This document shows, piece after piece, positions 16,969 to 18,971 of a DNA stretch of 64,000 nt. The first letter of the stretch is position 1, and each line of letters starts with the position of its first letter. This stretch comes from Nonomuraea longispora. Its GTDB lineage: Bacteria; Actinomycetota; Actinomycetes; Streptosporangiales; Streptosporangiaceae. The notes beneath the pieces were generated by a model that saw nothing but the letters and a program-made list of their open reading frames with translations, was not told where the DNA came from and did no database searches. The DNA is taken from positions 1-64,000 of the forward strand of contig NZ_SMJZ01000007.1 in assembly GCF_004348345.1 (NCBI RefSeq), given 5' to 3'. The position numbers and the translations under genes are program-made.

Positions 16969-17219
16969 GGCGGAAGGCCGCGAACCGAGTAACCCAGGGT
17001 CCACCCCTACACGAGATCAGCTGGTCGGGGCCTCCCACGCCAGCCGCCACGTGATCGGGCCCACGATCCCGTCGTCGTCGATCCCCTGCACGCGGCGGAA
17101 GGCCGCGAACCGAGTAACCCAGGGTCCACCCCTACACGAGATCAGCTGGTCGGGGCCTCCCACGCCAGCCGCCACGTGATCGGGCCCACGATCCCGTCGT
17201 CGTCGATCCCCTGCACGCG
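16969..17219. repeat. 125-bp exact tandem duplication
   Basis: 16969-17094 is repeated exactly at 17094-17219 (126 matching bases at an offset of 125). The right copy holds the last 25 codons and stop of the amidase gene plus 48 bp of downstream DNA. The left copy (17017-17094) is a detached remnant of that 3' end, lying in the mutA upstream region. The absence of differences suggests a recent event. Confidence 0.95.
17017..17094 (-). pseudogene. Duplicated 3' fragment of the amidase gene
   Basis: The second, orphan copy of the C-terminal end (GIVGPITWRLAWEAPTS plus stop) created by the tandem duplication. It has no start of its own. It could only be read by a frame change upstream. Confidence 0.8.
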
Positions 17220-18971
17220 CTGGAAACTGCGGCACACGTCGCGCGACTCGGGACCGTACGCGCCGTCCACGTCGATGTCCCAGCCGCGTTTCCTCATCTG
17301 CGCCTGCCACGTGCGTACGTCCTCGCCGCGTGTCACCGGCGGATACCTCAGCAGCCGCCCGGGGAACGGCGGCGCCGAGGGCGGCGGCGGTGGCTCGGCG
17401 GTGCCGCCGGGGCGCGGGGCGCCACGCCTGACCCAGGCGTAGAGAGGGTCGCCGGGGCAGGCGGTGGCGTAGCCGTCGCGGTGCCCCTTGATCTCCTTGC
17501 CGGCGCGGCCACTGGCGCGCAGGTGCTCGATCGCGTCGAGGACGGCGTGCAGGACGCCGTCGGGCGGCTGGACGAGCCCGGTGCTGCCCACCAGCCCCAG
17601 CACGGCGTAGTGGCCGGAGTTGAGCCCCGGGCCGTTGGCGGCGGGCAGATGGTGCGGCCCGCGCCCCTGGAACACCTTCCGGTGCGGGCAGGCGATCATG
17701 GTGTTGCCGGTGAAGTAGACGGTCCCGTCCCTGCGCGCCAGCCAGCTCTGGTTCTCGATCCTCGGGCACCAGATCCGGCCGTCGTAGGTCTCCTTCCGGA
17801 TCGTCATGCCCGCCGCGCCGCGCCGCGCGGCCGGTCGCGGCACGACGTGCCGCCGCCTGCCGACGGAGACCTTCCACCCGCCAGGTCCGTTGCCGTCCGC
17901 AGGCGGCACACGGTGCAGCGACGCCTCCGACCCCGACAGCAGCACGGCCAACATGAACGCCTCCGCCGCCGTACGGTCCTCGCGCGCGAACCCGTCCGGC
18001 CCGTCCCCGCCCGCCAGGCAGGTCGCCACGTACAGGTCGAGCTGGGACCTGGTCAGGCAGAGGAGGAAGCCGAGTGCGGGCACCCCGCCGGGCGCCGCCT
18101 CCAGCAGCTCCCGGCCCGCCCGGGCCGGGAGGCGGAACGCGGCGCGATCGTCCGAGAGCGTCTCCCGCCATGCCCCACCCCGGTGGAGCCGGTCGGCGGG
18201 AGGGCCGAGGACCGCGTGGAGCGCTGCACGGATGCGCATGAGGTGCGCCTCGTCGTCCGGCGGCCGGTGGATCGCGACGCCGCCCCCGGCGCGGTCGACG
18301 GCCCCGGCCGTGCAGAACCACGCGAGCAGCTCGACGAAGGCGTCCGACCACTTCGGCTCGGCCGGCAGGTCGGCGCAGGGAGCGGCGATCGTGATGCGGT
18401 CGTCGCCGGCGATGGTCTCGGTGGTGACCCACCGGCGCTCACGCACGGTGACCGTACGGCCCGCCCTCGCAGCGGGCAGCCACGTCGCGCCCGGCCCCCT
18501 CCACCGCAGGGAGCCGGGGACGCGGCGGCGGCGCTCCACCGGCCAGCGGTGATGGGGCGTCGTCAAGGAGGAGTGACCGGCGCCGCGCATGCGGATCATC
18601 TCCCGCTCGCGCGGGGGGAACACGCACACCTCCAGCACGGGCTGCCACACCGACATGCCCGTGCCGTGGTCGAGGGTGAGAACGAGGTCGCCGGGACGCA
18701 GCTCGCACCAGGACCTCCAGCCCTGCCGGGTGAGGATCTCGGTCTCCTCGTCCACGCAGTAGCCGATGTCGATCCAGCCGTTGCCGTCCATGTGGTGGCT
18801 CTGGATGGAACGTACCAAGGCCGTGCAGGCCTCGTGGTCGGAGACGATGCCGGGATCGACCCTGCCACCGGTGTAGTGGACCTTCACGCCTTTGGCGGAG
18901 TCGAGCTGCGTGTAGTCGCCGCGTGGGGTGCGAGCGTTCCAGTCGCGCCTTGATACCAGGTCGATGGCCAC
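17142..18971 (-). CDS. Intein-containing N-acetylmuramoyl-L-alanine amidase (PGRP-like)
   Basis: 609-aa precursor. Residues 1-71 begin a type-2 amidase/PGRP domain (KVHYTGG with a probable Zn ligand His32; then GWIDIGY). Residues 72-423 are an intein. Residues 424-515 complete the amidase (VFQGRGPHH, SGHYAVLGLVG, and the GHRDGYATACPGDPLYAW end motif with Cys505). A Pro-rich linker follows (525-535), then a peptidoglycan-binding domain (about 545-605, TWQAQMRKRGWDIDVDGAYGPES). Splicing would give a 257-aa cell-wall hydrolase cleaving the amide between MurNAc and L-Ala. No signal peptide is visible, as in phage-type lysins. The GTG start has GGAG about 8 nt upstream. Its 3' end is tandemly duplicated. 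Confidence 0.9.
   Translation of the reverse strand: MAIDLVSRRDWNARTPRGDYTQLDSAKGVKVHYTGGRVDPGIVSDHEACTALVRSIQSHHMDGNGWIDIGYCVDEETEILTRQGWRSWCELRPGDLVLTLDHGTGMSVWQPVLEVCVFPPREREMIRMRGAGHSSLTTPHHRWPVERRRRVPGSLRWRGPGATWLPAARAGRTVTVRERRWVTTETIAGDDRITIAAPCADLPAEPKWSDAFVELLAWFCTAGAVDRAGGGVAIHRPPDDEAHLMRIRAALHAVLGPPADRLHRGGAWRETLSDDRAAFRLPARAGRELLEAAPGGVPALGFLLCLTRSQLDLYVATCLAGGDGPDGFAREDRTAAEAFMLAVLLSGSEASLHRVPPADGNGPGGWKVSVGRRRHVVPRPAARRGAAGMTIRKETYDGRIWCPRIENQSWLARRDGTVYFTGNTMIACPHRKVFQGRGPHHLPAANGPGLNSGHYAVLGLVGSTGLVQPPDGVLHAVLDAIEHLRASGRAGKEIKGHRDGYATACPGDPLYAWVRRGAPRPGGTAEPPPPPSAPPFPGRLLRYPPVTRGEDVRTWQAQMRKRGWDIDVDGAYGPESRDVCRSFQRVQGIDDDGIVGPITWRLAWEAPTS
17703..18758 (-). mobile_element. Intein (352 aa) with decayed LAGLIDADG-type insert
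   Basis: The N-terminal splice block is CVDEETEILTRQGW (Cys nucleophile, residue 72). Block B is LTTPHHRW (residues 136-143). The C-terminal block is YDGRIWCPRI...RDGTVYFTGN, ending at Asn423 and followed by Thr424. The usual penultimate His is Gly. Between the splicing halves (about 200-375) are two segments placed like a DOD homing endonuclease, LLAWFCTAGAV and AVLLSGSEAS. The acidic residue normally present in each LAGLIDADG motif appears lost. The insertion point is the conserved DIGY motif of the amidase, a typical intein site. So splicing looks intact, while homing is probably dead. Confidence 0.88.

Follow-up and report, generated by a model that had tools for sequence, protein, structure and literature searches.

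The 64,000-nucleotide stretch of Nonomuraea longispora DNA analysed here (contig NZ_SMJZ01000007.1, positions 1 to 64,000 of the forward strand; hereafter the window) contains a reverse-strand open reading frame (ORF) of 609 amino acids (positions 17142-18971, GTG start, stop codon included) whose product is a domesticated endolysin-type amidase interrupted by a Cys1-bearing, class-3-like intein. The intein would belong to the Tfu2914 type, a kind already known. From sequence comparison and a predicted structure, we infer that it removes itself by a class 3-type route, that the amidase is inactive until spliced, and that the homing nuclease carried by the intein is dead; as a whole, we consider this reading to be likely. 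A first-pass annotation, made from the letters of the DNA, had proposed an intein in a PGRP-type amidase, and the length, strand, ORF and residues that it gave were found as described.

The intein occupies amino acids 72-423 of the precursor (352 residues; positions 17703-18758, on the reverse strand like all coding features below). It begins with CVDEETEILT and ends with VYFTGN, directly before Thr424, and the TxxH motif of block B, the terminal Asn and the Thr at position +1 are all present. Its HINT domain is encoded in two parts, an N-terminal one with blocks A and B (18519-18758; intein residues Cys1, Thr67, His70 and Trp72) and a C-terminal one with blocks F and G (17703-17780; Cys331, Thr350, Gly351 and Asn352), between which lies a middle domain of the LAGLIDADG endonuclease type (17811-18425, approximate limits drawn from the alignment, the model, structure matches and relaxed selection). 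An AlphaFold2 model of the intein (predicted local distance difference test score, pLDDT, 92.9) consists of a HINT domain and a LAGLIDADG nuclease, and it shares the fold of nuclease-bearing inteins, with TliVMA and similar inteins as the best matches (TliVMA Z 23.6, root-mean-square deviation (rmsd) 4.6 over 295 residues). Generic hidden Markov models, the check suggested by the first-pass annotation, gave weak support for the intein: Pfam Hint_2 remained under the cut-off (expectation value E 0.0046). NCBIfam detected the peptidoglycan-binding part alone, phmmer against the PDB matched PI-MtuI at E 0.2, and a profile built from 44 inteins reached E 0.023 at best. Since such generic models say little, the case is built on the family alignment and the AlphaFold2 model. 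A structure prediction of the whole precursor (609 amino acids, 16 sequences) gave a pLDDT of 69 and a predicted template modelling score of 0.45 and was not used. The intein ends originally proposed, amino acids 72 and 423, proved right. Judging from the alignment, the model and its structure matches, we regard the insert as a genuine intein, presumably one that splices.

The exteins point to a predicted zinc amidase of the PGRP/endolysin type. The N-extein (amino acids 1-71; 18759-18971) carries His32 and Tyr71, the Tyr of the DIGY motif, and the C-extein (amino acids 424-609; 17145-17702) carries Thr+1, His497, Cys505 and a PG_binding_1 domain (amino acids 548-601; 17169-17330; Pfam E 1.1e-10). 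Joined at GWIDIGY-TMIACPHRKVFQGRG, they form a 257-amino-acid amidase with a peptidoglycan-binding domain. By comparison with T7 lysozyme and PGRP-LB, we take His32, His497 and Cys505 to be zinc ligands and Tyr71 to be an active-site residue; all four are invariant across 16 aligned precursors. Neither the joined exteins nor L023, an orthologue of the same genus that has no intein, matched Pfam Amidase_2 at E 0.01; this model was reached by a viral relative (IMG/VR contig L112). When aligned to structures, L023 matches PGRPs (best E 5.6e-12), which bears out the proposed PGRP-type amidase. Over its whole length L023 also matches the 'endolysin' family PHROG 1493 (E 9.5e-53), a family that the 609-amino-acid precursor matches as well (E 1.5e-45), and to judge from this match the ancestry of the amidase is that of a phage endolysin, as the first-pass annotation had suspected. 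ORF041 of Thermobifida phage P1312 belongs to the same family; it sits in a phage lysis cassette, unlike the window gene, which lies on the chromosome between mtnA and mutA. The insertion point lies directly after Tyr71 and cuts His32 off from His497 and Cys505. With the predicted zinc ligands separated beside the active-site Tyr, the precursor should be inactive before splicing.

The splicing residues are strictly conserved. In the alignment, Cys1, Thr67 (B:7), His70 (B:10), Trp72 (B:12), Cys331 (F:4), Thr350 (G:5), Gly351 and Asn352 occur in every one of the 59 distinct amidase inteins. The class 3 signature, W-C-T at B:12, F:4 and G:5 (PMC3196547), is complete in the window intein as Trp72, Cys331 and Thr350, and the spacing, with His and Trp two residues apart and 21 residues from Cys F:4 to Asn G:7, is the same as in Msm DnaB-1 (His65, Trp67, Cys118 and Asn139; PMC5222942). 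The triad, the block F Cys and the Asn spacing are shared with the class 3 inteins MP-Be DnaB, Msm DnaB-1 and MchDnaB1, which, unlike the window intein with its Cys1, have no nucleophile at position 1 as the class is usually defined. Msm DnaBi1 also differs in having Ala at position 1, Asp at B:7 and a penultimate His where the window intein has Cys, Thr and Gly (PMC6195587). The full W-C-T signature suggests that Cys402 of the precursor (intein Cys331, block F), rather than Cys72, is probably the first nucleophile, and it makes doubtful the earlier expectation that a C72A mutant would not splice. The penultimate Gly, previously singled out as a peculiarity, is present in 59 of 59 amidase inteins; it is described as natural in the Bethlehem gp51 intein, in which a change from Gly to His led to precursor accumulation (PMC5050341). 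Strict class 3 inteins have no position-1 nucleophile and the window intein has Cys1, and it is for this reason best called a class-3-like hybrid, to judge from its residues, with the class 3 triad next to the Cys1 and block B Thr of class 1. A wider definition of class 3 takes in inteins that have both Cys1 and W-C-T.

The Thermobifida fusca intein (L084 and L052) occupies the same amidase site, has Cys1, W-C-T and a penultimate Gly, and is 50% identical to the window intein. It differs in length (341 versus 352 amino acids) and lies in another amidase type, with mtnA and mutA absent from the flanks examined. It is the sole such intein found in that genome (strain NBRC 14071). The ORF directly after the L084 amidase matches ORF042 of phage P1312 at 45 of 73 residues, which is the figure given for ORF042 and Tfu_2915 (PMC4569894), and the adjoining intein-bearing amidase is therefore probably Tfu_2914, on the assumption of a direction of locus numbering and with NBRC 14071 standing in for strain YX.

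The homing nuclease of the window intein is probably dead, as the first-pass annotation had also thought probable. In the AlphaFold2 model, the two LAGLIDADG helices lie at intein residues 139-151 and 237-250. The first helix and motif (LLAWFCTAGAV; 18297-18344) place Ala151 where relatives have the catalytic Glu of WTEG, and the second (LDLYVATCLAGG; 18006-18050; motif at amino acids 311-322, within the helix at 308-321) places Gly251 where they have the catalytic Asp of SIDADG or LAADN. The window thus reads CTAG and LAGG at these points, and both catalytic acids expected of an active LAGLIDADG enzyme are lost (E to A and D to G). The second segment had initially been assigned to AVLLSGSEAS, which is located further on; that assignment would make every family member dead and is overturned by the phage relatives and the model.

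Acid loss is frequent among the amidase inteins. Scored in two aligned columns, both acids are present in 22 of the 59, one in 13 and none in 24, and 46 of 52 distinct non-amidase relatives, mostly from phages, keep both. Changes of acid state on the amidase-intein tree number at least eight on well-supported branches and 12 on the best tree, with bootstraps that had not settled for this tree or for the genus amidase tree discussed below; we read these changes as losses, regain being unlikely. Selection is relaxed in acid-losing pairs, mainly in the middle domain. Among 19 sister pairs, four mixed ones being left out, the ratio of nonsynonymous to synonymous substitution rates (dN/dS) of the middle domain was 0.03-0.22 in four acid-intact pairs versus 0.37-0.85 in 11 pairs in which both partners lack one or both acids (p 0.0015). 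For the pair formed by the window and N. deserti, neither of which has the acids, the ratios were 0.75 (middle), 0.28 (HINT) and 0.19 (extein) with pooled dS, and 0.62, 0.27 and 0.28, respectively, with each part's own dS. Two observations blur this picture: in part of the 22 'acid-intact' copies the surroundings of the acid look degenerate (e.g., L051), and HINT dN/dS was also higher in acid-losing pairs, although the gap was smaller (p 0.04).

Filled and empty alleles of the amidase coexist within the genus. All 54 genus genomes carry a match (the named relatives are mostly Nonomuraea); the intein is present at the identical point in 17, and the amidase halves abut uninterrupted in the other 37, of which 13 were read residue by residue at the empty site. 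The intein-free orthologues that the first-pass annotation had asked for are thus at hand. In 51 of the 54 genomes, the fetched flanks contained both mtnA and mutA, with mtnA about 1.5 kb away in L187 and L195; the three exceptions are a locus that stops at a contig end (L005), one without mtnA in its flank (L010) and one of which only 492 bases were fetched (L199). These conserved flanks mark the window gene as a stable chromosomal one, even though its product belongs to a family of phage lysins. The same synteny rules out a prophage at the window locus and speaks against the suggested phage source in the sense of a phage copy residing there. Among plasmid records, none matched over 80% of the precursor; the one labelled 'plasmid' for N. 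gerenzanensis measures 11.9 Mb.

On the genus amidase tree (53 of 54 genomes, L199 left out), the distribution of the intein needs 13 changes, compared with a mean of 14.5 for shuffled labels, among which 108 of 500 were as low as 13; the starred branches force three changes. Within the mtnA-mutA type, intein and extein trees are not clearly in conflict (approximately unbiased test, p 0.86 and 0.67 with the intein data and 0.0595 for one extein grouping). In two pairs of Nonomuraea sister genomes with and without the intein (L009/L178 and L013/L198), the first 30 nucleotides downstream of the site differ at 9 and 7 positions, respectively, compared with zero to two in five like-with-like pairs; these differences could also stem from selection acting on the residues at the start of the C-extein.

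Under the favoured reading, the ribosome would make a precursor in which the intein parts Tyr71 and His32 from His497 and Cys505, and this precursor would stay inactive until spliced. The HINT domain would then fold, and Cys402, at position 4 of block F and aided by His141 and Thr421, would attack the bond before Cys72. The N-extein would be transferred to Thr424, Asn423 would cyclise, and the exteins would be joined between amino acids 71 and 424, releasing the active 257-amino-acid amidase. The nuclease half would once have spread the intein by copying it to empty alleles, and in this lineage it would be dead. The same intein could also follow a class 1 route, in which Cys72 starts splicing and Cys402 merely assists, as the F:4 Cys does in some class 1 inteins; we judge this unlikely, if worth serious attention. 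Several observations tell against a class 3-type route. The class 1 hallmarks Cys1 and block B Thr are both present in the window intein and each is found in 59 of 59 amidase inteins, such invariance being odd for a dispensable Cys1, and B:12 is not Trp in seven of the 52 distinct non-amidase relatives, which nonetheless have both cysteines. A survey that covered 1701 class 3 inteins took the absence of a position-1 Cys as defining the class, which excludes Cys1 inteins by definition (PMC7891396, section 6), and the block B Thr is said to be 'generally' absent from class 3 inteins (PMC6195587). The fold ranking does not part the two classes: among matches that have no homing endonuclease, the AceL NrdHF intein of class 3 comes nearest (Z 18.5, rmsd 1.8 over 144 residues), but the class 3 Msm and Mch DnaB inteins (Z 14.8 and 14.6) rank below several class 1 inteins. 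Part of the collection, moreover, was recruited by a Cys1-containing pattern (the genome-contig and IMG/VR scans), and the intein parser required a start Cys and a terminal Asn or Gln; among 41 intein-bearing ORFs of the genus and family, the parser failed on L050 alone, a relic without amidase and without Cys1, and the start Cys is present in six of six phage records taken from plain tblastn. A class 1 route, for its part, has to accommodate the full W-C-T triad at class 3 spacing and the mutagenesis of the T. fusca Tfu2914 intein, whose amidase is of the same family by gene adjacency: according to what Tori and Perler reportedly found in 2011, that intein has W-C-T, and its position-1 nucleophile can be mutated without loss of splicing.

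Two further explanations concern what the intein still does. It might have decayed to a point at which it no longer splices, leaving the amidase a dead pseudogene. Its nuclease half is indeed probably dead, the HINT dN/dS of the window pair (0.28) exceeds the 0.03-0.19 of acid-intact pairs, and L050 (genome G170), which lacks Cys1 and the terminal Asn, is a relic of just this kind. We nonetheless hold decay to be very improbable for the window copy, whose frame is open, whose eight splicing residues, three predicted zinc ligands and Tyr71 are all intact, and whose exteins evolve at a dN/dS of 0.19 to 0.28. Alternatively, by analogy with Msm DnaBi1, the invariant Cys72 and Cys402 might act as a redox lock that keeps the amidase unspliced, a regulated switch that would fit the presence of both cysteines in 59 of 59 inteins and the persistence of splicing residues where nuclease acids have been lost. 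In Msm DnaBi1, a class 3 intein, oxidants cause Cys48 and the catalytic Cys118 to form a disulfide (PMC6195587); however, Cys48 is a different cysteine from the Cys72 of the window. Moreover, 37 of the 54 genus genomes lack the intein, which means that a switch, if there is one, can be dispensed with, and we rate this idea as improbable.

Beyond the genus, the intein appears to have moved between hosts. When amidases of the mtnA-mutA type of Streptosporangiaceae were paired with those of the other amidase type, intein identity exceeded extein identity in 808 of 828 pairs (medians 53% for inteins and 32% for hosts). Among pairs inside a single type, by contrast, this was so for 14 of 253 in the mtnA-mutA type and for 156 of 630 in the other; the pairs are not independent. 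Because inteins are more alike than their hosts across the types, the intein has probably moved between diverged amidases. The clearest trace comes from a phage pair. IMG/VR contig L112 is P1312-like, its lysin being 94.5% and its neighbours 97-98% identical to those of phage P1312; the L112 lysin holds an intein with both nuclease acids, whereas the P1312 lysin is uninterrupted at that point (L112 2015-3994 vs L225 1198-2073). Mismatches between the two cluster at the site (35 of 150 positions near it and 52 of 1840 further out, with near and far limits set after viewing the bins), in a count that runs from about 750 nucleotides upstream to about 1250 nucleotides downstream, beyond which the sequences are unrelated. 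The 100 nucleotides upstream of the L112 intein show four mismatches to T. fusca and 16 to P1312. Such a site-centred patch is the trace expected from homing, in which the cut site is repaired and flanking sequence is copied along with the intein; in the reverse event, P1312 may have lost the intein together with a replaced patch. We tentatively propose, with the balance somewhat against it, that the inteins of chromosomal amidases and those of phage endolysins belong to a single exchange pool: inside a shared cell, the nuclease of an intact relative would cut an empty phage lysin gene and the intein would be copied in, the phage lysis enzyme would then depend on splicing, and chromosomal copies that lose the nuclease, like that of the window, would be kept as splicing-only gates on a domesticated endolysin.

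The intein was matched in 41 of 200 genomes of the family (six of them weakly, E 1e-6 to 9e-4), and fetching was limited to 30 loci. A genome-contig scan found 51 loci, mostly in Nonomuraea, Herbidospora, Nocardiopsis and Thermobifida, of which 49 lie in PGRP-type amidases at the same site. The earlier remark that inteins are unusual in wall hydrolases agrees with the literature listings searched, but this clade in such amidases is a large one. In a class-wide draw of 394 genomes, with five candidates per genome scored, 18 matched at E 1e-10, all in the window's own family. IMG/VR yielded 64 relatives and the phage collection 49 records, 13 of them covering at least 80%. The phage and viral exteins examined are portal, terminase, helicase, glycosyltransferase and unknown proteins, plus the endolysin of L112. 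Inteins of Gordonia phages Woes, GordDuk1, GMA3 and Belphegor and of Mycobacterium phage Pinkcreek are full-length homologues with 31-36% identity; like the window intein, the actinophage inteins have Cys1 and a terminal GN (six of six records, GX15bay included), and unlike it they sit in portal, terminase and other exteins and mostly keep the nuclease acids. A quick tree of 115 rows placed 58 of the 59 amidase inteins in one clade (Shimodaira-Hasegawa-like approximate likelihood ratio test 96) nested among phage inteins, with the Kitasatospora intein (L096) unresolved beside it. For these counts, the viral loci L145, L146, L150, L159, L161 and L164 were dropped as their intein ends were unresolved; L152, L153 and L174 were left out of the tree and counted among the 52 as lacking acids; L050, which has no amidase, was excluded; and L104 and L106, with other exteins, were counted in the 52 and not in the 59.

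Several members of this wider family are of interest in their own right. The relic in genome G170 (L050, or L200 3044-4297 on the forward strand) is a free-standing intein of 418 amino acids with no amidase in its ORF; it lacks Cys1, has the residues TGA in place of the terminal TGN, and keeps WTEG and MGDG at the nuclease motifs, possibly a nuclease outliving splicing. Nocardiopsis metallicus has two amidase inteins in two places (L105 and L107; 371 and 280 amino acids), both with neither acid. The same intein family also occurs in a DNA methylase of Streptomyces sp. CNH099 (L104) and in a protein without Pfam hit in Gordonia asplenii (L106). IMG/VR contig L123 carries an intein identical to the latter, which may for this reason lie in a prophage.

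At the end of the window amidase gene, a perfect 125-nucleotide tandem duplication (16969-17218, with copies at 16969-17093 and 17094-17218) covers the amidase end, its stop codon and the beginning of mutA. A gap of 15 nucleotides separates the amidase match from the mutA match in the N. deserti homologue (L003), versus 140 in the window. The duplication may be real or an assembly artefact.

In the literature searched (titles, abstract openings and passages of open-licence papers), no paper stood out as describing an amidase or endolysin that carries an intein, and passages of a survey of 224 mycobacteriophages report no intein-bearing endolysin (PMC3314691). The L112/P1312 pair provides a case in which a phage lysin looks recently invaded, and this branch of inteins as a whole records how an intein passed between host and phage genes and later ceased to be mobile. 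It also offers a conflict for experiment, in that Cys1 is invariant even though the W-C-T signature should make it unnecessary. Why inteins last after the death of their nuclease is an old question. Here, eight splicing residues are fixed, the nuclease acids have been lost repeatedly and empty sister alleles occur in the genus, so that the cost, the loss and the possible use of a splicing-only intein would be measurable in one enzyme.

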